From Falsiroseomonas tokyonensis (lineage in GTDB: Bacteria > Pseudomonadota > Alphaproteobacteria > Acetobacterales > Acetobacteraceae): a stretch of DNA of 64,000 nucleotides. Below the pieces are notes generated by a model that was given only the letters and a program-made list of their open reading frames with translations, made no database searches and was not told the origin of the DNA. Below, piece after piece: positions 11,729 to 36,439 of the stretch. The position numbers and the translations under genes are program-made. Positions within the stretch are counted from its first letter, which is position 1. Each line of letters begins with the position of its first letter. The stretch covers positions 310,001-374,000 of the forward strand of contig NZ_JAFNJS010000001.1 in assembly GCF_019024325.1 (NCBI RefSeq), read 5' to 3'.

Positions 11729-13075
11729 TTAACGGACCCTTACTAGCGTATCGATCAACCGAAGCGCGAGTCTTTTTCTTGGAAGATCAAAGAGGCGCGA
11801 GAGACTCCAGCGCCCATGACGAACATGTGATCGCGTATCAGAGAAGGTAAAAAATCCCGCTTTTCCGTGATACCTCCCCTGCCCCGAGGCACCTGCCCCG
11901 CCGAAGCCCAGGGCGGGAAAGGCAGCGAATTCCACCGCCCGGCCGGCCACCAGCGCGCCCGAGCGGGTGCGGGACGCGACCGTCGCCTGCTCCGCCCGCG
12001 TCGCGCCAAACAGGTAGATCGCCAGCGGAACCGGCCGGGCGGTGATCCAGGCGATGGCGGCGTCCAGGTCGGGCTGGGCCAGCACCGCCAGCACCGGGCC
12101 GAAGATCTCCTCCTCCCCCAGCGGCTGGCCCGGCGGGGGGAAGGCCAGCGCCAGGGCGCGCTGCCGGCCGGGGCCATCCGCGCCCAGCTTCTCCAGCGGC
12201 ACGGCCCCCACAAGCCGGTCCAGCCGCGCGGCCTGGGCCTGGCTGGCGATGCCCGATTCCGGCGTGGCGATGCCACTCGCCCGGCAGGCATTGAGAAAGT
12301 CCTCGGGACGGTGGCCGACCAGCAGCACGGTGTCCGGCGCGATGCAGGTCTGGCCCGCATTCACCGCCTTGCCCGCCAGAATGTCCCGCGCCGCCACGGT
12401 GAGATCGGCGCCCGGCAGCACCAAGGCCGGGCATTTGCCGCCGAGTTCCAGCGTCACCGGCACCAGGTTGCGGGCCGCGGCCTCGGCCACCTTGCGGCCG
12501 GTCGCGGTGCCGCCGGTGAAGATCAGGTGGTCCCAGGCCTGGGCGGCGAAATCCGCGGCCACATCGGGCCCGCCCAGCACGGTGGCGGCGATGTCCGGGC
12601 CCAGCGCCTGCTCCAGCACCTCCGCCATCAGGGCGGCGGTGCGCGGCACCGCCTCGCTCGGCTTCACCGCCACGCGGTTGCCGGCGGCAATGGCATCCAC
12701 CAGCGGCACCAGGGCCAGCTGCACCGGGTAGTTCCAGGGCGCCATGATGCCGACGATGCCCTTGGGCACCGGCTCCTCCCAGGCGCGGGCGGGCCAGAAG
12801 GGATAGGGCACGGCGACCCGGCGCGGCCGGGCCCAGGCCTTCAGGTGGCGGCGGGAATAGCGCGCCGCATCGACAGTACACAGCACATCTGCCAGCAGCG
12901 TTTCCAGGCGGGATCGGCCGCCGTAATCGGCATCCAGCGCGGCGGCCAGATCCTCCGCCCGCAGCAGCAGCGTCCGCACCAGGCTGTCCAGCAGCGCGCG
13001 CCGGCGCTCGAGCGGCAGGCGGCCATCCCGCGCCTCGGCCGCGCGAAGCCGGGCCAGGGCTTCCCCTGGCGTCAC
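11729..13075 (-). CDS. Aldehyde dehydrogenase, probably oxidising a carotenoid aldehyde
   Basis: This NAD(P)-dependent aldehyde dehydrogenase has 448 residues, in the size range of class 3/coniferyl-aldehyde types. The APWNYPVQL segment, the glycine motif FTGGTATGRK, the general base Glu in LELGGKCP and the nucleophile Cys in NAGQTCIAPD are all present. A GTG start overlaps the hpnE stop (GTGA), and no better upstream start fits. It is the last gene of the squalene/carotenoid cluster; in C30 carotenoid pathways an aldehyde dehydrogenase turns a terminal aldehyde into the carboxylic acid, which is the role proposed here from position. Confidence 0.84.
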   Translation of the reverse strand: MTPGEALARLRAAEARDGRLPLERRRALLDSLVRTLLLRAEDLAAALDADYGGRSRLETLLADVLCTVDAARYSRRHLKAWARPRRVAVPYPFWPARAWEEPVPKGIVGIMAPWNYPVQLALVPLVDAIAAGNRVAVKPSEAVPRTAALMAEVLEQALGPDIAATVLGGPDVAADFAAQAWDHLIFTGGTATGRKVAEAAARNLVPVTLELGGKCPALVLPGADLTVAARDILAGKAVNAGQTCIAPDTVLLVGHRPEDFLNACRASGIATPESGIASQAQAARLDRLVGAVPLEKLGADGPGRQRALALAFPPPGQPLGEEEIFGPVLAVLAQPDLDAAIAWITARPVPLAIYLFGATRAEQATVASRTRSGALVAGRAVEFAAFPALGFGGAGASGQGRYHGKAGFFTFSDTRSHVRHGRWSLSRLFDLPRKRLALRLIDTLVRVR

Positions 13076-14331
13076 GCCGGCACCGCCTGCCGGCGCGCCA
13101 GGGCATAGAGGATGGCGGCCGCCGCGGCCTCCCCCGAGCGGACCGCCGCCTCGATCGTCGCCGGCAGCTCCGCCACGGTCCAGTCGCCGGCCAGCGCCAG
13201 GTTGGCCAGCGGCCGGCGCGGCGGCAGGGCGGGCGGATTCAGCCCGTGGCGCGGCGTGGCGCGGCGCTCGCGCACGGCGCGCGCGGGCGGCGGGGCGGCG
13301 GGCCATTCGCCGGGCAGGCCGAAGCGCAGCCCGGCCTGGCGCACCTCCGGCCAGATCCGTGCCGCGGCTTCGGCATCGGTCAGGCCGATGCTGCCATCGG
13401 CCGCGCTGACGGTGACGGAAATGCCGCCCGGCCGCACCAGCACCCATTGCGAAAGCCCGCCCAGCAGACCCAGGAAACGCACCGGATGGTCCCCCACCGC
13501 ACCCGAGTCCGGGCGGCTGAAATGCAGGTTCAGGATCGGCGCATGGCGCTGCGGCACGGAAAGCCCGGGCAGCAGCCGCGCCGCCTCCCAGGGCGGCAGG
13601 GCCAGCACCACGCCATCGGCGGGACCCACCGGCAGGCTGGTGCCCGCGAATTCCAGCGCGGCGACGCGGCCGCCCGCCTGCACCACCTCCCGCAGCCGGC
13701 TGCCGGTGCGGAGATTGGCGCCGTGGCAGGCCAGCGTCGCCAGGGCCGGCGCCACCAGGTCCGGCCCGAGCCCCTGGCGCGCCACCAGCAGCCGCGCCGC
13801 GCCACGCCCGCCCAGCCGCCGCAGCACCGCCCCCAGCAGCCGGGCGGAGGCTTCCTGCACCGGCGTGTTCAGCGCCGCGACGGTCAGCGGTTCCACCAGC
13901 GCGCGCAGCAGCCTGGGATGGCCGGCGAAGGCGGCGGCGACGCTGCGGTCCGCGCCGGGCAGGGCCAGCCGCAGCAGGGCGAACAGGGCGCCCAGCGTCA
14001 TCCCCTCCGGCCGCCTGGCCGCATCGGCCCAGCCGAGCGGTGAGAGGGATACGCGCCTGGCGCTGCCGGTTTCGAGGTCCAGCACCGGCAGCCCGGCCGG
14101 CTCGGGCTCCACCCAGCCCTCCTGCGCGCCGATCTGGGCCAGGAAGCGCAGCGCCGCGCGATTGGCGCCGAGCAGCGCATGGGTGCCATTGTCCGTGCCA
14201 TCCGGCAGCGCCCGGGCGCGGCCGCCGGCGACGGGCGCGGCCTCATGCAACGCCACCCGCTGGCCGGCCCGCACCAGGGCCAGCGCGGCGGCGAGACCGG
14301 CGATGCCGGCGCCGATCACATGCACCGTCAT
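13072..14331 (-). CDS. hpnE: Hydroxysqualene dehydroxylase HpnE
   Basis: This FAD enzyme of the amine-oxidase/desaturase fold reduces hydroxysqualene to squalene, the third step of the HpnCDE route. The 419-residue product begins with the dinucleotide loop VIGAGIAGLAAAL, then GGRARALPDGTDNGTHALLGAN, a stretch characteristic of HpnE rather than carotenoid desaturases. The C-terminal FAD segment is LALAGDWTVAELPATIEAAVRSG. The ATG overlaps the hpnC-hpnD stop by ATGA, so the two are tightly coupled. An upstream in-frame extension is rich in Ala/Pro and overlaps hpnCD coding; it is not used. Confidence 0.87.
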   Translation of the reverse strand: MTVHVIGAGIAGLAAALALVRAGQRVALHEAAPVAGGRARALPDGTDNGTHALLGANRAALRFLAQIGAQEGWVEPEPAGLPVLDLETGSARRVSLSPLGWADAARRPEGMTLGALFALLRLALPGADRSVAAAFAGHPRLLRALVEPLTVAALNTPVQEASARLLGAVLRRLGGRGAARLLVARQGLGPDLVAPALATLACHGANLRTGSRLREVVQAGGRVAALEFAGTSLPVGPADGVVLALPPWEAARLLPGLSVPQRHAPILNLHFSRPDSGAVGDHPVRFLGLLGGLSQWVLVRPGGISVTVSAADGSIGLTDAEAAARIWPEVRQAGLRFGLPGEWPAAPPPARAVRERRATPRHGLNPPALPPRRPLANLALAGDWTVAELPATIEAAVRSGEAAAAAILYALARRQAVPA

Positions 14332-15950
14332 GGCCGCAAGGCCAGCCAGGCCATGCGCAGCTTCTCCACCCGCGTCAGCCGGGGTCGTGTCCGGGGATGG
14401 GCGAAGCCGCGCGCCAGCATGCGCTGCAGCAGGCGGCGATAGCCCCACATCATGATCCGTGCCGGCTTCATCGCCGCCGCATCATGGTCCTGCAATTCCA
14501 GCGCCGCTTGCGCGAAGCCGGCCTCGGCCCGCGCCGCCAGCTCCGCGCAGCAGAGCGCGAAGCCCGGATGCTGCAGCACCAGGTCGGGCGGCCCCGCCGG
14601 CACGCCGTGCCTGGTCAGCAGCGTGGCGGGGACATAGAGGCGGTCGATCGCCGCATCCTCCTCCACGTCGCGGACGATGTTCACCAGTTGCAGGGTGCGG
14701 CCGAGCGCCAGGCCGAAATCCTCCGCCGCCGGCGCGCCGAAGATGCGCACCGCCATGGCGCCGACGCTGCCGGCGACGCGGCGGCAATAGGCGTCCAGCG
14801 CCGCCTCATCCGCAATGCGCAGCCCGGGCGTCGCATCCGTCTCCATGCCCGCGATCATCGCCTCGCATTCCGCGCGGGGCAGGTCGAATTCCTGCCGCGC
14901 CCAGGCAAGCTCGGCCGAAAGCGCGCAATCCGGCGCCGCCAGCTTGGCCCGCCAGCCGGCCAGCAGGCGGCGCTTCTCCGCCTCCGGCATGGCGCCATCG
15001 GCGATATCGTCCACGGCGCGGCAGAAGCCATAGACGGCATAGAGCGCACGGCGGCGCCCGCCCTTCAGCACCGCCATGCCGCGTCCGAAGCTGCTGCCGG
15101 CGCGGTCGACGCGCGCCCGCACCACCGCGGCATCGGAGGGTGGGTCGCGCAGCAGGCTGGCGAAGGCGGCGGCGAAATCGGCGCGGCCCAGCGCCACCCG
15201 CCCCCGCACCGGATCCGCCGCCCGCAGTCTTGCCAGCAGACGCCAGCCCAGGGCCAGGGTGACGGCGGCTTGGCGGCGGAGGCGGGAGCGGAGCAGGCGG
15301 GGAAGCGGGGCCGCAACCTCCAGCTTCGCCTCCACCCGGTCCAGCGCGGCATCCAGCACGGCGCGGCGCTGGGGATTGGCGGGATCGAAGAATTCGGCCT
15401 CCCCGCCGGCCAGGGCCATCCAGGGCCCGGGCAGGTAGATGCGGTCCAGCCGCGCGCGATCCTCCACCAGGTCCTGCAGGTGGTTCAGGATCTGCAGCGC
15501 GGTGCAGAGCGCATCGGCGGCGCGCGGCGCCTCGGGATGATCCTCCCCATGCAGGCGCAGCAGCATGCGGCCCACCGGCTCAGCCGACCGGGCGCAATAG
15601 TCCTCCAGCGCCGGCCAATCCGCGTAGCGCTTCTGCACCGCATCCTGGCGGAAGGCAGTCAGCAGCTGGCGCGCCTCCTCCGTACCCACGGCGGCGAGCG
15701 GGCCGGCGGGATCGTCCAGCCGGCGTTCCAAGGCGGCCAGCCGCATCAGCTTCGCCGCGGGCGACAATTCCGGCGCATCGGCGATGTCATCGGCCATGCG
15801 GGCGAAGCGGTAGAAGGCGAGCACCTTCGGCCGCAGCGCCGGCGGCAGCAGGCGGGAGGCGACGGGGAAGTTTTCCGTCGTTTCGGTGCGGTTCGGCGCC
15901 CGGTCCGCGGGGGGGACGGCGAGCCCGTCCGCGAATTCGGGCCGGTCCAT
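14328..15950 (-). CDS. hpnC-hpnD: Fused HpnC-HpnD: hydroxysqualene and presqualene diphosphate synthases in one chain
   Basis: A single 540-residue frame contains two complete trans-isoprenyl synthase domains. Residues 27-265 are HpnC-like (NFPVAS signature at 27-32; first Asp motif DDIAD at 54-58; second motif NHLQDLVED at 156-164). Residues 275-540 are HpnD-like (DRAGSSFGRGM opening; DDIAD at 314-318; NIVRDVEED at 424-432). HpnD makes presqualene diphosphate from two farnesyl diphosphates, HpnC converts it to hydroxysqualene, and HpnE downstream completes squalene. These are normally separate adjacent genes in this order; the junction near residue 270 has no stop or internal start with a ribosome site. 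Both active sites look intact. Scaffolded carotenoid genes upstream suggest the squalene feeds pigment synthesis. Confidence 0.88.
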   Translation of the reverse strand: MDRPEFADGLAVPPADRAPNRTETTENFPVASRLLPPALRPKVLAFYRFARMADDIADAPELSPAAKLMRLAALERRLDDPAGPLAAVGTEEARQLLTAFRQDAVQKRYADWPALEDYCARSAEPVGRMLLRLHGEDHPEAPRAADALCTALQILNHLQDLVEDRARLDRIYLPGPWMALAGGEAEFFDPANPQRRAVLDAALDRVEAKLEVAAPLPRLLRSRLRRQAAVTLALGWRLLARLRAADPVRGRVALGRADFAAAFASLLRDPPSDAAVVRARVDRAGSSFGRGMAVLKGGRRRALYAVYGFCRAVDDIADGAMPEAEKRRLLAGWRAKLAAPDCALSAELAWARQEFDLPRAECEAMIAGMETDATPGLRIADEAALDAYCRRVAGSVGAMAVRIFGAPAAEDFGLALGRTLQLVNIVRDVEEDAAIDRLYVPATLLTRHGVPAGPPDLVLQHPGFALCCAELAARAEAGFAQAALELQDHDAAAMKPARIMMWGYRRLLQRMLARGFAHPRTRPRLTRVEKLRMAWLALRP

Positions 15951-16014
15951 GCTCAGGCGGGTCCGCGGAGGCCGGGCGGAGCGCAGCGAAATCCGACCTG
16001 CGACCCGAAGGGTC

Positions 16015-16051
16015 GAGCGCGCGAATGCGCGCCGCGGCTTATGCCGCGAAG
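16015..16051. repeat. 37-bp two-hairpin repeat, copy 1
   Basis: This segment holds two small stem-loops in tandem, one with an AAT-containing loop and one built on GCGGCTTATGCCGC. A second copy lies inverted at 36350-36386 and matches at 32 of 37 positions. Four of the five differences are paired changes that keep the first stem intact. The surrounding 15951-16118 stretch, between the glycosyltransferase and hpnC-hpnD, is otherwise non-coding and full of short GC-rich hairpins. Confidence 0.5.
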
Positions 16052-16087
16052 CCGAGCCGCGCGGATGCGCGGCGCCGGCGTTTGAGG

Positions 16088-16110
16088 GCGCGAAGGTGAA
16101 AGCTTCGCGC
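16088..16110 (-). terminator. Hairpin after the glycosyltransferase gene
   Basis: The 8-bp stem GCGCGAAG/CTTCGCGC with a 7-nt loop begins 8 nt after the glycosyltransferase stop on the same strand. There is no T-run, so it may be a weak or Rho-assisted terminator, or an mRNA 3'-end stabiliser splitting the cluster into two segments. Confidence 0.35.
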
Positions 16111-16118
16111 GTCTGGCA

Positions 16119-17219
16119 TCAAACCGTGCCATAGGCGCGCCCCTTCCAGCCGGCCGGCTTGCCCATCAGCCCGCGCACCAGCGCCACCCATTGGATCGCC
16201 AGCGCCATCGCCACCGTCAGCGGATGCAGCGGAATGGTCCACCAGGGCTCTCGCACCCGCAGCGTCACCGCGGCGCGCAGGGCGAAGCCGAGGGCCAGCG
16301 CCAGCAGCGCCGCGCTGCGCGGCAGGAAGACGAAGGGCCACAGATGCGCGCCGGCCAGCATCACGGTCCAGATCGGCAGGCCCACGGGGGTGGCCATGCC
16401 TTCCCGTGCATTCTTGATGAAGCCGGCCCAGCTGTCGCGGAAGTTCGTGTACATGCGGCAGGTGGCCAGGCCATGGCCCTCGACGATCTCGGTGGCCAGC
16501 CCGTGCTCCCGCATCCGCCGCGCCAGCGCCAGCCCGTCATGCAGCACGCCGCGCACAGCCTCATGCCCGCCAGCCGCAAAATACCCCTCGCGCTCCACCA
16601 GCAGCAGCTGGCCGCAGGCCGCGGCCATGCCGGGCCTGCGGGTGAAGGCGCGGCCGCCGCCCGGCAGGTAGCAGAACAGAAGAAAGTTGATCATCGGCAC
16701 GGTCAGCGCCTCGCCCAGCGAGCCGATCGCCTGGCGCGGCACGCCGGTGACCATCGCCGTGCCGGTGCGCGCCGCATGGCCCGTCATGCTGGCCGCAGCC
16801 TCCGGCGCCAGGCGCACATCGGCATCGATGAACAGGAAATGCGTGCCGCGCGCCGCCGCGGCCAGGCGCGCGCAGGCATGCACCTTGCCGGTCCAGCCCG
16901 GCGGCAAAGCCGGTGCCACCTCCAGCCGCACCCGCGCATCCTTGGCAGCGTAATCCTGCACGATCCGCGCCGTGGCATCGGTGGAGCCGTCATCCATCAC
17001 CACCACCTCCACCGCCACGCCGCGGGAAGCGAGCGCGGCATCGAGGCAGGCGGCGATATTCGCCGCCTCGTTCCGCGCCGGGACGAGGATGGAAACCAGG
17101 CTGCCCTCGGGCGGCGTGCCGCGCGGCGGGCGCACCAGGAACAGGTTCACCACGCCCATGCTGGCAGGGAACATGGCCAGGGCCAGGGCGATCCAGGCCC
17201 AGGTGAATTCGAGATCCAT
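16119..17219 (-). CDS. Family-2 glycosyltransferase, probable carotenoid glycosyltransferase
   Basis: This membrane-anchored GT2 enzyme of 366 residues has an N-terminal transmembrane helix (residues 7-29), the nucleotide-sugar fold starting VSILVPARNEAANI, the DDGST motif, the metal-binding DAD in FIDADVRL, and two or three membrane helices at the C-terminus. This is the architecture of the CrtQ-like transferases that attach glucose to C30 carotenoic acids, and of other hopanoid/carotenoid-linked GT2 proteins. It lies two nucleotides after the acyltransferase stop, with GGGGAGGGGCGG upstream of the ATG. Position in the cluster supports a role in glycosylating the carotenoid acid; the sugar is not predictable. 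Confidence 0.83.
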   Translation of the reverse strand: MDLEFTWAWIALALAMFPASMGVVNLFLVRPPRGTPPEGSLVSILVPARNEAANIAACLDAALASRGVAVEVVVMDDGSTDATARIVQDYAAKDARVRLEVAPALPPGWTGKVHACARLAAAARGTHFLFIDADVRLAPEAAASMTGHAARTGTAMVTGVPRQAIGSLGEALTVPMINFLLFCYLPGGGRAFTRRPGMAAACGQLLLVEREGYFAAGGHEAVRGVLHDGLALARRMREHGLATEIVEGHGLATCRMYTNFRDSWAGFIKNAREGMATPVGLPIWTVMLAGAHLWPFVFLPRSAALLALALGFALRAAVTLRVREPWWTIPLHPLTVAMALAIQWVALVRGLMGKPAGWKGRAYGTV

Positions 17220-17221
17220 CG

Positions 17222-18061
17222 CTAGCCCGCCCCTCCCCTGCGATCCCCTTCGGGATCGTGTCTTGGATCGAATGATTGTCCCTTCGCGGCCGAAAGCAAG
17301 CGCCTCCAGAGCTGATAGATGCCGCCCATGCCCTCCGGCCCCCGCAGCAGCGTCTCGAAGCGCGCGGGATCGCGGGCGATGGCATCCTGCGCCAGGCGGT
17401 CCATGGTGGCGGCCAGGGCATCGGACAGCACCGAAAGCCGATCCTCCCGCGGCAGGGCGGCCAGTGTCGCGGCGGTGATCGGCTCGCCGAAGGCGCAGAG
17501 CATCTCCGCCTTGCGCTCGGTCCAGAAGGGATAGTCCAGCGCCAGGGGGACGAACAGCGCATCCGGCGTCATCTCCGCCAGGCGGGACATGCCGGGGGCG
17601 ATCGGCACGGGGCGTTCCCGCACATCGCTGAAGCGGCCCGGCGCGTTCATCCACAGCATGCGGTCCGGCGCGGCCAGCACCTCCCGCGCCGTGCGCAGGA
17701 AGGCGACCGCGCCGCGCGGCGTGCCACCCTCCACGCCGAAGACGCCGATGCGGGTCATGAAGCGGTAGCGCGTCAGCGCCGCCGCATCCATCGGGATGAA
17801 CATCCGGCGGTCCGGGAACAGCCGCTGCGACAGCAGCATGAAGGCGACGCCGTCCCACCAGCCGGGATGGTTGGCAAACACCACCAGCGGCCGCGCGCCA
17901 TAGCGCTGCGGCAGGCCCCAGCTGGCCACCCGCGCCGCCCGCATATGGGTGCGGAAGAAGCGGGTGAACATGTAATGGAAGAACGCCATGCGGCGCGGGT
18001 CATAGAGCGCGATCGGGCTCCCGCCCGCCTCACCCCGGGCCCTTTCCGGCATGGCGTTCAT
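17222..18061 (-). CDS. PlsC-like acyltransferase, probable carotenoid-glycoside acyltransferase
   Basis: This 279-residue membrane-associated acyltransferase belongs to the lysophosphatidate acyltransferase fold. The catalytic HX4D motif is NHPGWWDG near residue 63, and the acceptor-side motif is VFGVEGGTPRG. In C30 and C40 carotenoid clusters a protein of this type adds a fatty acid to the sugar of the glycosyl carotenoid. A second ATG three codons in is an equally plausible start. It follows the desaturase gene by 8 nt and precedes the glycosyltransferase by 2 nt, so these three are one transcript. Confidence 0.82.
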   Translation of the reverse strand: MNAMPERARGEAGGSPIALYDPRRMAFFHYMFTRFFRTHMRAARVASWGLPQRYGARPLVVFANHPGWWDGVAFMLLSQRLFPDRRMFIPMDAAALTRYRFMTRIGVFGVEGGTPRGAVAFLRTAREVLAAPDRMLWMNAPGRFSDVRERPVPIAPGMSRLAEMTPDALFVPLALDYPFWTERKAEMLCAFGEPITAATLAALPREDRLSVLSDALAATMDRLAQDAIARDPARFETLLRGPEGMGGIYQLWRRLLSAAKGQSFDPRHDPEGDRRGGAG

Positions 18062-18069
18062 CGCAAGGG

Positions 18070-19656
18070 CTATTCGGCCGCGGCGGCCAGCTCCGCCTCC
18101 CGCCGCCCGGCCTCGCGCGCCGCATCCGACATGCCGCGGCCGCCGCGGTCGCGGTCCAGCGCGTCGGCTGCGATCCAGCCGGACATCATCACCATCGGCA
18201 TGCCCGGCCCCGGATGCGCCGCGCCGCCGCAGAGATACAGGCCCTTCACCATCTTGGACCGGTTGCCCGGCTTGAAGGCGCCGGTGAAGCTGCCATGGCT
18301 GGCCAGGCCATAGATCGCGCCATCCAGCACCTTGTAGCGGTTGTGGATATCGACCGGCGTGAGCTTGCCCTCCACCACGATCCGCTCCTCGATATCCTCG
18401 AGCCCCGCGGTGCGCTTCAGCTTGTCCAGGATGGTCTGCCGATACTGAGGAAACATCTTCGACCAGTCGTGATGCGGGCGCAGATAGGGCGTGTGCACCA
18501 GCACATAGAGCGCCTCGCCGCCCTCCGGCGCCGTGGTGTCGTCACTGCACGACGTGGCCGCGAGATAGGCGGTGGGGTCCGGCGCCGGCTCGCCCTTCTT
18601 GTAGATCGCATCGAACTCCTCCTCCGCATCGCGGGAGAAGACGAAGTCATGATGCGCCAGGTGGTCGTAGCGCTTGTTGAGGCCGAGATAGAGCACCACG
18701 CCCGAACAGGCCGGCTCGAAATTCTTCTTGGCGTATTTCCGACCGGGCTCGCCGCCGACCAGTTCCTTGTAGGTGCGGATCGCATCCATGTTGGAGATCA
18801 CCGCATCGCAGGCGATCGTCTCGCTGCCCACACGCACGCCCTTGATGGCGCCATTCTCGATGTCGAAGCCCGTCACCTCGGCATTGGTGCGCAGCTCCGC
18901 GCCCAGCTCGCCCGCCAGCTTCGCCAGCCCCTCCGCCACCGCACGCGTGCCACCCACCGGATACCAGACGCCCTCGCTGGCCTGCATGTCGCCGATCGAA
19001 CACACCACCGCCGGCGCCAGATAGGGGGAGGAGCCGATATACTGGCAGTAGTGATCGAGCATCTGCGCCAGCCGCTCATCCGGCACATGCCCGCGAATCA
19101 CCTTGGCCGCCGTCTGGCCCATCTTCAGCGACAAGACATCCCGGATCGTGCCCGGGTTCATGTTCGCCTTCATGTCGATGGTGTCCGTCACCCCCTCGAC
19201 CGGCCGCCAGAAGAAGAATTTTTCCGAAACCCCATGCAGGTGACGGCTCTCCTCCTGGAACTTGCGATAGCCCTCACCGAGCCCCCTGCCCGGCGCGAAC
19301 TTCTCGATCTCCGCCTGCATCGTGGCGACATCCGCCATCAGGTCGATGCGCGTGCCATCCTCGAAGAAACACCGCCACTGCGGATCCAGCCGGATCAGCG
19401 GCAACTCCCGCGCCTGGTCGCGCCCCGCCTCCGCAAAAATCCGCCGCAACACCCGCGGCACCGTCAGAATCGTCGGTCCCATGTCGAAGCGGAAAGACCC
19501 CGACCCATCCGGCGCATCCAGCGTCAGAACCGCCGCCTTCCCCCCCAACCAGGGATTCTTGTCCAGCAAGGTCACCCGATGCCCGCGCGCCGCCGCCACA
19601 CACGCCGCCGCCAGGCCACCCAGGCCACCCCCCACCACCACCACCCGGTCTGCCAT
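18070..19656 (-). CDS. CrtI/CrtN-type carotenoid desaturase or oxygenase (B)
   Basis: This 528-residue FAD-dependent enzyme of the phytoene desaturase family has the N-terminal ADP-binding loop VVVVGGGLGGLAAA, the LLDKNPWLGGKA segment, FDMGPTILTVPRVL, and the C-terminal CrtI signature ending CGGAAHPGPGMPMVMMSGW. Enzymes of this family either desaturate the C30 or C40 backbone (CrtI, CrtN) or oxidise a terminal methyl group (CrtP). With squalene-forming genes in the same cluster, the C30 substrates are favoured. Which of the two desaturase paralogs is CrtN and which CrtP cannot be told from sequence reading alone. It begins the three-gene segment with the acyltransferase and glycosyltransferase. 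Confidence 0.84.
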   Translation of the reverse strand: MADRVVVVGGGLGGLAAACVAAARGHRVTLLDKNPWLGGKAAVLTLDAPDGSGSFRFDMGPTILTVPRVLRRIFAEAGRDQARELPLIRLDPQWRCFFEDGTRIDLMADVATMQAEIEKFAPGRGLGEGYRKFQEESRHLHGVSEKFFFWRPVEGVTDTIDMKANMNPGTIRDVLSLKMGQTAAKVIRGHVPDERLAQMLDHYCQYIGSSPYLAPAVVCSIGDMQASEGVWYPVGGTRAVAEGLAKLAGELGAELRTNAEVTGFDIENGAIKGVRVGSETIACDAVISNMDAIRTYKELVGGEPGRKYAKKNFEPACSGVVLYLGLNKRYDHLAHHDFVFSRDAEEEFDAIYKKGEPAPDPTAYLAATSCSDDTTAPEGGEALYVLVHTPYLRPHHDWSKMFPQYRQTILDKLKRTAGLEDIEERIVVEGKLTPVDIHNRYKVLDGAIYGLASHGSFTGAFKPGNRSKMVKGLYLCGGAAHPGPGMPMVMMSGWIAADALDRDRGGRGMSDAAREAGRREAELAAAAE

Positions 19657-19943: not shown

Positions 19944-21542
19944 TTAAGGCTCCGCCGTCACCGGGGTTGCCGCGCGGAAGCCGCTGTCGGCGGTAGGCCG
20001 GCTGGGGGCGCCGGACAGGCCGAGGTCCTGGGCGAGCAGGCCGGTGGTGATGCGGGCGCCTTCGTAGATGACGGGCAGTCCGCTGCCGGGGTGGGTGCCG
20101 CCGCCGACCAGGTAGACGCCGTCCACTTCGCGGAAGCGGTTGCCGGGGCGGAATAGCAGCATTTGCGGCAGGTCGTGGGCCAGGTTGAAGGTGGCGCCGT
20201 AGCCGACCGCGTAGTCCTGTTCCCAGTCATGCGGAGCGACGATGCGTTCGTACTTGATGTGCGGCCGCAGGTCGCCGAGGCCGAGGACTTTCAGGCGGTC
20301 GAGTGCGATGTCGCGGAAGCGGGCGGCCTGGTTCTGCCAGTCCGGTTGCACGATCAGGTTCGGCACGGGAACCAGCACGTAGAGGGCGGAGTGGCCTTCG
20401 GGGGCCAGTGTCGGGTCGGTGGCGCCGGCGTGCTGGACGTAGAGCGAGGGGATTTCCGGGATTTCGCCGGATTCGATCTGGCCGATGTTCTGCCGGTATT
20501 GCTCGGAGAGGATGACGTTGTGGTGGGCGACGCCGGGCAGGGTCCGGTCGAGGCCGAGGTAGAGCATGAAGGTGGAGCAGGAGTAGCGGGCCTTGCTGAT
20601 CTTCTTGTCGGTCCAGCCTTTGCGGCGGAGGTGGTCCGGGATCAGCTTTGGGATGGCGCCGGCGAAGTCCGCGTTCACCACCACGGCGTCGGCATCGTGG
20701 CGGGTGCCACCGATCTCGACGCCCTTGGCGCGGCGGCCTTCGAAGGCGATGCGGTCGATCGGGCTGTTCAGGCGGATATCAGCGCCGAGGCGTTCGGCCA
20801 CGCGGGCCATGGCGTTGGAGACGGCACCGCAGCCGCCGATCGGGTGGAAGACGCCGTGTTCGTATTCCAGGAAGGACAGGATGGTGAACAGCGCCGGGCA
20901 CTTGAACGGCGACATGCCCAGGTATTTGGTCTGGAAGGAGAAGGCCAGGCGGACGCGGGGGTCCTTGAAGTGGCGCGCCAGGTCGCGGTCCACGGTGGAC
21001 CAGGGCTTCATCAGCGGCAGCGCCTTGATCATGTCCGGGCGGATCATGTCGGCGGCGGTGGAGAAGGCGCGTTCCAGCACCGGCCGGAAGGCTTCCAGCT
21101 TGGCGCGGTTTTCCCGCATGAAGGGGCGCAGGCCCTTGGCGTCCTCGGGCGAGATGCGGGCGATCTCGGCTTCCATGCGGTCGAGGTCGGCGCTGGCGTC
21201 CAGCTTCGTGACGTCGCCGCCCTGTTCGAAGAGCAGCCGGTATTGCGGCTCCAGCCGCCGCATATCGACTTCCTGTTCCAGGTCCGCGCCGCAGCGGGAG
21301 AAGATCTCCTTCAGGATGCGCGGATACAGGAAGAAGGTGGGCCCCAGGTCGAAGCTGTAGCCTTCGGGGGAGGTCAGGGTGCGGGTGCGCCCGCCAACCA
21401 CCTCATCTTTTTCATAGACCGTGACCCTGGCGCCGGAGGCGGCCAGCAGCATGGCGGCGGCGAGGCCCCCGGGCCCGGCGCCGACGATAGCGACCTTGGG
21501 GCGGGAGCGGTGAAGGGCGGGGGAGGACAGGGGTGCGGTCAT
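19944..21542 (-). CDS. CrtI/CrtN-type carotenoid desaturase or oxygenase (A)
   Basis: This is the first gene of the pigment cluster, a 532-residue FAD enzyme of the phytoene-desaturase family. It carries VAIVGAGPGGLAAAM, YEKDEVVGGRT, FDLGPTFFLYPRIL and the C-terminal LVGGGTHPGSGLPVIYEGA signature. It is clearly paralogous to, but not closely identical with, the second desaturase gene. In a squalene-based route one such enzyme introduces the conjugated double bonds and the other oxidises the end group. The ATG at the MTAPLSS position is preferred over a TTG five codons upstream. No strong ribosome site is visible. Transcription may continue from the acyl-CoA dehydrogenase gene 57 nt upstream. 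Confidence 0.84.
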   Translation of the reverse strand: MTAPLSSPALHRSRPKVAIVGAGPGGLAAAMLLAASGARVTVYEKDEVVGGRTRTLTSPEGYSFDLGPTFFLYPRILKEIFSRCGADLEQEVDMRRLEPQYRLLFEQGGDVTKLDASADLDRMEAEIARISPEDAKGLRPFMRENRAKLEAFRPVLERAFSTAADMIRPDMIKALPLMKPWSTVDRDLARHFKDPRVRLAFSFQTKYLGMSPFKCPALFTILSFLEYEHGVFHPIGGCGAVSNAMARVAERLGADIRLNSPIDRIAFEGRRAKGVEIGGTRHDADAVVVNADFAGAIPKLIPDHLRRKGWTDKKISKARYSCSTFMLYLGLDRTLPGVAHHNVILSEQYRQNIGQIESGEIPEIPSLYVQHAGATDPTLAPEGHSALYVLVPVPNLIVQPDWQNQAARFRDIALDRLKVLGLGDLRPHIKYERIVAPHDWEQDYAVGYGATFNLAHDLPQMLLFRPGNRFREVDGVYLVGGGTHPGSGLPVIYEGARITTGLLAQDLGLSGAPSRPTADSGFRAATPVTAEP

Positions 21543-21599
21543 GTGAGTGGGGTGCAAATGCGTGCGCCGCCCCAGCCTGCAAGAGGTCCGGACATGGGG

Positions 21600-36349: not shown

Positions 36350-36386
36350 CTGCGCGGCATAAGCCGCGGGCCGCATTCGCGGCCTC
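36350..36386. repeat. 37-bp two-hairpin repeat, copy 2 (inverted)
   Basis: This is the inverted copy of the element at 16015-16051: 32 of 37 positions agree, with the GCGGCTTATGCCGC palindrome unchanged and paired substitutions in the other stem. A further GGCCCGCC/GGCGGGCC stem follows before the ggt gene. Confidence 0.5.
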
Positions 36387-36439
36387 GGCCCGCCTGAAGT
36401 GCGGCGGGCCGCCGGATGTTCTGGTTAAGAGGTCACGCC

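Follow-up and report, generated by a model that had tools for sequence, protein, structure and literature searches.

What does it mean that two consecutive enzymes of squalene synthesis share a single reading frame, and which pathway would their product serve? The question is raised by a gene, here called hpnCD, in a 64,000-nucleotide stretch of the Falsiroseomonas tokyonensis genome (contig NZ_JAFNJS010000001.1 of assembly GCF_019024325.1, positions 310,001 to 374,000), hereafter the window, to which all coordinates refer unless another contig is named. Our analysis indicates that hpnCD very probably encodes a two-headed HpnCD enzyme which, together with HpnE, makes the squalene that feeds a C30 carotenoid. 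Below we describe the gene and its neighbours, weigh this function against other explanations, and discuss how the fusion arose and what it may do.

The hpnCD reading frame and its two halves

The gene runs on the minus strand from 15950 to 14328 as a single ATG-to-TGA frame of 540 codons; a preliminary description of the window had named the same uninterrupted frame, without its strand. The plus strand is open here as well (frame 14040..16085), which judging from the sequence we take as a shadow frame of GC-rich DNA and not as a gene; G+C is 69-75 per cent across the window and 75 per cent at hpnCD. The Pfam domain SQS_PSY was found in two stretches of the protein, with a total of 330.5 bits. 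When the whole protein was scanned with NCBIfam, HpnC (TIGR03464) was the best match at residues 22-263 (15162..15887, minus strand; 321 bits, cut-off 250.45) and HpnD (TIGR03465) at residues 282-536 (14343..15107, minus strand; 329.2 bits, cut-off 278.6), separated by a junction of residues 264-281 (15108..15161, minus strand) as delimited by alignment and a predicted model. Each half scanned alone gave the same family first, the N-terminal half with 224.7 bits for HpnC vs 101.3 for HpnD and the C-terminal half with 241.1 bits for HpnD vs 107.9 for HpnC, which bears out the domain order proposed earlier. The two halves are identical at 57 of 176 aligned positions (32 per cent).

The HpnC half contains the motifs ENFPVAS (26-32), DDIAD (54-58) and QDLVED (159-164, with the Asp motif at 160-164), the HpnD half DDIAD (314-318) and RDVEED (427-432, with the Asp motif at 428-432), so that the NFPVAS signature that the preliminary description had noted in the N-terminal half is present, as are the two Asp-rich motifs it had seen in each half. 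The Asp residues of these motifs have a metal-binding role. All eight (D54, D58, D160, D164, D314, D318, D428 and D432) are conserved without exception, both in 17 of 17 selected fused proteins and in another set with 26 of 26, which consists of the window protein and 25 of the 30 named fused loci; both sets were selected and both include the window protein. It is thus well supported, at the level of sequence comparison, that the gene is an HpnC-HpnD fusion which keeps the motifs of both active sites. Both halves are under purifying selection, with similar constraint. The ratio of nonsynonymous to synonymous substitution rates (dN/dS) was at most 0.42 in both halves for the 25 pairs printed out of 66 among 12 genes, pairs being printed only where dN was below 0.2 in a half; the three closest gave 0.055-0.089.

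The AlphaFold model of the fused protein has a mean predicted local distance difference test score (pLDDT) of 92.7 and a predicted template modelling score (pTM) of 0.89. Predicted helices 256-267 and 273-284 flank a short junction that would consist of a five-residue turn and no long linker, and the high pTM suggests that the halves would be held in a fixed arrangement. A Foldseek search with this model listed CrtM-like structures at the top, then HpnC (4hd1, rank 5) and squalene synthases, folds that agree with an HpnCD enzyme. This ranking, like the carotenoid cluster in which the gene is found, favours an enzyme of the CrtM kind, a dehydrosqualene synthase that would make the C30 precursor directly and whose second half would be regulatory or degenerate. 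We consider this very improbable, given that HpnC and HpnD are the best sequence families, that both sites have invariant motifs, that hpnE overlaps hpnCD, and that a cyclase, which needs squalene, is present in 20 of 26 Roseomonas-type genomes with the fusion.

A fused frame might also result from a sequencing or assembly artefact, and the preliminary description had pointed to a possible frameshift at the junction near 15140. The junction is open in relatives: in a sample of 150 genomes of the family, the window genome included, 29 contain a complete stop-free fusion and two more a fusion cut by contig ends, and named isolates of Roseococcus, Belnapia, Roseicella, Roseomonas and Microvirga are fused as well. 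These independent genomes with the same open fusion rule out an artefact, to which we assign a negligible probability. Farther from the family, an order-level draw of 200 genomes gave 46 matches at 1e-60, one of them (G223) with an internal stop, a class-level draw of 289 gave 15, four with a stop between the halves, and a phylum-level draw of 299 gave three, both besides the window's own carrying a stop; every draw count includes the window genome and the threshold favours close relatives. Among the best 80 named loci of the genome collection, in a ranking that favours fused or in-phase pairs, 30 are fused, 46 are split and four have one half. The fused ones include loci from Roseomonas, Roseococcus, Roseicella, Belnapia, Pseudoroseomonas, Microvirga, Inquilinus, Niveispirillum and Acetobacter sacchari, and from metagenome bins named Omnitrophota and Tectomicrobia.

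Gene neighbourhood and squalene supply

Seven minus-strand genes extend from 21557 to 11729. In this order, they encode two CrtI-family flavin adenine dinucleotide (FAD) enzymes, CrtN-like (19944..21557, start approximate; TIGR02734, 502.2 bits) and CrtP-like (18070..19656; 384.4 bits, cut-off 238.1 for both) by position and analogy; an acyltransferase (17222..18061), which by analogy would be of the lysophospholipid type (Pfam Acyltransferase 22 bits, cut-off 23; no NCBIfam match); a family 2 glycosyltransferase (16119..17228; Pfam, the CruG- and HpnB-like scores lying far under their cut-offs); HpnCD; an hpnE-like FAD enzyme (13072..14331), for which TIGR03467 is the best model with 264.7 bits when scanned without the first Met; and an aldehyde dehydrogenase (11729..13078, start approximate; Pfam Aldedh). 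The ATG of hpnE (14331-14329) overlaps the hpnCD stop (14330-14328) in an ATGA with four shared bases. The set for a C30 carotenoid on the squalene route is complete (HpnC, HpnD, HpnE, two CrtI-family enzymes, aldehyde dehydrogenase, glycosyltransferase and acyltransferase), two of its members, HpnE and the acyltransferase, scoring under their cut-offs. This setting was not named in the preliminary description.

The intergenic stretch between the glycosyltransferase gene and hpnCD (15951..16118) contains a dispersed repeat with 14 matches in the genome including itself; the copies are 76-100 per cent identical over 27-171 bases, and a further one lies in the window at 36350-36391. The window has 119 frames of at least 200 codons. 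Ten more window frames were scanned, of which seven correspond to ordinary families (e.g. DNA polymerase I and phosphoenolpyruvate carboxykinase) and three gave no match.

Squalene can be made by a three-step HpnD-HpnC-HpnE route (Pan et al. 2015, as cited in PMC5462960). Reasoning from the named families of this route and from the Methylobacterium pathway, the C-terminal HpnD half would form presqualene diphosphate from two farnesyl diphosphates, the HpnC half at the N-terminus would turn this into hydroxysqualene, and the product of the overlapping hpnE would reduce hydroxysqualene to squalene. The two CrtI-family enzymes would then desaturate and oxidise squalene, the aldehyde dehydrogenase would form the acid of the C30 carotenoid, and the glycosyltransferase and acyltransferase would decorate it.

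Is hpnCD the only source of squalene? Of the four SQS_PSY domains encoded by the window genome, the fusion accounts for two. The third belongs to a protein that matches a phytoene synthase model best (392.9 bits, cut-off 500); its gene, on contig C57 of the genome (168408-172166), adjoins a frame that by eye looks like an alpha/beta-hydrolase. The fourth is a distant paralogue with 79.1 bits to HpnD (cut-off 278.6). Model scans of the predicted proteins thus show no second HpnC- or HpnD-like protein besides the fusion, and judging by the phytoene synthase-like gene the organism may own a C40 carotenoid route alongside the C30 route. No squalene-hopene cyclase was found with PF13243 and PF13249 in the window genome, which is 99.7 per cent complete, so that here the fused enzyme most likely supplies carotenoids only.

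Including the two in the fusion, each of the 29 genomes in which it is complete has two to four SQS_PSY domains. All 26 Roseomonas-type genomes among them have three or four, hence one or two outside the fusion: each has one paralogue of 50-149 bits, and 14 add a second protein, whose 223-256 bits fall in the range of the phytoene synthase-like protein of the window genome. With the fused protein as query, one match was obtained in the 12 three-domain genomes and two in the 14 four-domain genomes, the weak paralogue being missed, which makes it unlike a real HpnC or HpnD, since these would be seen; for the 25 relatives, this assessment of the other SQS_PSY proteins draws on their number and scores, individual model scans being those of the window genome. 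A squalene-hopene cyclase is present in 20 of the 26 genomes, where squalene must therefore be made by something; no cyclase match was obtained in the window genome and in five of the other 25, one of which (G087) is 84 per cent complete. Given the cyclase in 20 of 26 and the few other SQS_PSY domains, the fused protein is probably the only HpnC and HpnD of Roseomonas-type genomes and the sole squalene source, hopanoids included. PMC8776678 reports hopanoid genes in all type strains, vs the six of 26 genomes without a cyclase match here, which speaks against a sole source. The same paper describes an acidophilic Acetobacteraceae group, counting Roseomonas and Belnapia, with unclustered hopanoid genes of which one or more are typically missing. 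Hopanoid producers of this group seem to be without separate squalene genes near the cyclase, and a fused gene in a carotenoid cluster may explain this; at the R. nepalensis locus the fusion stands beside CrtN- and CrtP-like genes.

Several points weigh against a two-headed HpnCD enzyme that supplies squalene. Scanned alone, both halves stay under the cut-offs of their families (224.7 under 250.45 for HpnC, 241.1 under 278.6 for HpnD), the whole-protein scores passing because both halves add up in them, and the hpnE-like product stays under that of TIGR03467 (264.7 under 283.05). The paralogue scores (50-149 bits) reach into the range of some HpnC halves, which begins at about 132 bits, so that score alone leaves room for a separate HpnC, and squalene could come from an enzyme outside PF00494. 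Finally, no biochemical study of a fused HpnCD was found in the literature searched, whose coverage left most subscription journals outside. Set beside the family matches of the halves, the invariant motifs, the overlap with hpnE and the complete carotenoid set, these points leave the proposed function of HpnCD very probable.

History and effect of the fusion

For a joint tree, 142 loci were thinned at 85 per cent identity to 106, of which 58 are fused and 48 split; loci with one half (four of the 80 named ones and one other) were left off. On this tree, which is of a quick kind with several long branches, unsure metagenome rows (L109, L115 and L125) and gain indistinguishable from loss, the fused rows do not form one clade. 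It shows 13 changes between the fused and split states, at least 11 of them forced by starred branches, and shuffles average 35.2; separate trees of each half have 13 changes each. A single origin of the fusion was rejected on the 13 changes and the forced minimum of 11. Against many events, a 32-row subset chosen by title as non-metagenome shows only three changes, by an imperfect filter that kept only named genomes and in which bins L096 and L102 stayed. The number of fusion or split events is thus uncertain.

All 44 rows of the group that holds the window gene are fused (support 93, unstarred); 36 of them are of Acetobacteraceae type, five are from Microvirga and three lie around Inquilinus. 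One split row, Limimaricola, comes in with the next group up, which has 47 rows and is starred. This is the plasmid locus of Limimaricola variabilis, whose carotenoid gene set is similar and in which hpnC and hpnD overlap but are separate genes; it joins two fused loci on the tree and offers a natural split control. Microvirga is a member of the Hyphomicrobiales, an order other than that of the Acetobacteraceae. The presence of Microvirga inside the fused group makes it likely that the carotenoid cluster was transferred between orders. On a plasmid of Microvirga ossetica, a carotenoid cluster that includes a methyltransferase and ispH has hpnCD fused, which hints at such a transfer as well.

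The fusion is not confined to carotenoid clusters. Some fusions stand in a hopanoid setting: in G029 the cyclase match starts about 2.4 kb from the fusion, and cyclase matches are present in the locus DNA of fused Acetobacter sacchari, Inquilinus and an Omnitrophota bin. A tblastn search with the cyclases of four loci gave no match at the Komagataeibacter loci L144, L148 and L149, and cyclase counts of neighbourhoods are therefore lower bounds. A CrtN- or CrtP-like match above 150 bits was found in the locus DNA of 20 of 30 fused vs none of 46 split loci among the best 80 named ones, and of 21 of 31 vs one of 47 when the two plasmid loci are added. The idea that the carotenoid setting drove the fusion was not retained: the association is essentially that of one clade, an independent-pairs test gave four pairs and p = 1, and we make no causal claim.

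As to what the fusion does, it most likely keeps two consecutive enzymes at equal dosage and in the same place. It is rather probable that there is little effect beyond equal dosage, the fusion having arisen when a stop codon was lost between co-transcribed genes and persisting without special function. The fused order is the usual hpnC-hpnD gene order, and fused and split forms occur side by side in several places of the tree, as in Acetobacter sacchari (fused) and A. musti (split); within one genus (g17), G163 and G227 gave full-length fused matches and G016 and G107 only matches of separate-half strength. Against a fusion without special function speaks the group of the window gene, wholly fused and with both halves conserved. 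A more specific effect, proposed in the preliminary description, would be channelling, in which the HpnD site would hand presqualene diphosphate straight on to the HpnC site. Consecutive steps share one chain, the junction is short in a confident overall model, if the prediction is correct, and the fused state appears at several places of the tree. Co-transcribed neighbours could also become fused by losing one stop, and 25 of 47 split loci, in a sample biased to in-phase pairs by the ranking, have a lone stop between two in-phase frames; we regard channelling as unlikely. The combined proposition that in Roseomonas-type bacteria the fused enzyme of the carotenoid cluster is the cell's sole squalene source, for C30 carotenoids and hopanoids, and also passes presqualene diphosphate directly between its sites is doubtful. 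If true, it would explain the unclustered and partly missing hopanoid genes described in PMC8776678. A natural fusion around presqualene diphosphate with close split relatives is a ready pair for testing channelling, and fused hpnCD could serve as a single-gene part for squalene production.

Comparison with known systems

PMC5462960 reported in 2017 that most genomes of subdivision 2 Acidobacteria in its sample have a fused hpnCD, and named BLAST relatives in Actinopolyspora, Blastococcus saxobsidens and the alphaproteobacterium Rhodospirillum centenum. There the sequence was kept as HpnC as far as residue 279-339 and cropped beyond, from which the published fusions would also have HpnC first. 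The window gene fits this layout, with hpnC and hpnD in one frame and HpnC first, and like these fusions it is a single gene, about double the length of hpnC or hpnD, and belongs to the squalene section of the pathway. Unlike the fusions of that hopanoid study, to which it is likened by description, it lies in a C30-carotenoid cluster, and its genome gave no match to a squalene-hopene cyclase. A new kind of fusion is therefore rejected, and the statement of the preliminary description that the fusion is not a described enzyme fails at the level of the gene; at the level of the enzyme it may hold, the literature searched having yielded no biochemical study. No report of a fused HpnCD in carotenoid clusters of Acetobacteraceae was found in that literature. 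PMC12583986 has no occurrence of the words fused, fusion or bifunctional, and a passage of PMC11638410 writes 'crtIP and hpnCD' for the carotenoid cluster of Palleronia. Fused hpnCD genes have thus been known since 2017; added here are a member in a carotenoid cluster and the proposed role in squalene supply.

The window fusion has the families, order and motifs of separate HpnC, HpnD and HpnE, with hpnE next to it, and differs from separate HpnC and HpnD in being one chain and not two. For separate systems, PMC13274349 describes how deletion of hpnCDE in Azospirillum brasilense led to the loss of carotenoids, squalene being undetected in the mutant. According to PMC10448405, a CrtP-type oxidase, a glycosyltransferase and an acyltransferase of Methylobacterium extorquens AM1 work from HpnCDE squalene, and deletion and complementation link the glycosyltransferase and the acyltransferase to tailoring steps. 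The pathway proposed for the window is alike in that squalene from HpnCDE would be followed by CrtN/CrtP-type oxidases, a glycosyltransferase and an acyltransferase. In AM1, as described there, HpnC and HpnD are separate and hpnCDE stand with the cyclase gene, by gene numbers away from the glycosyltransferase and acyltransferase genes, whereas in the window hpnCD and hpnE lie inside the carotenoid cluster. A close counterpart is the Microvirga ossetica plasmid protein WP_162299269.1, annotated only as a squalene/phytoene synthase family protein. It is also fused and 51 per cent identical to the window protein, and it has the same neighbours, namely a CrtI-family pair, an acyltransferase, a glycosyltransferase, an FAD enzyme and an aldehyde dehydrogenase, its cluster differing by the methyltransferase and ispH.

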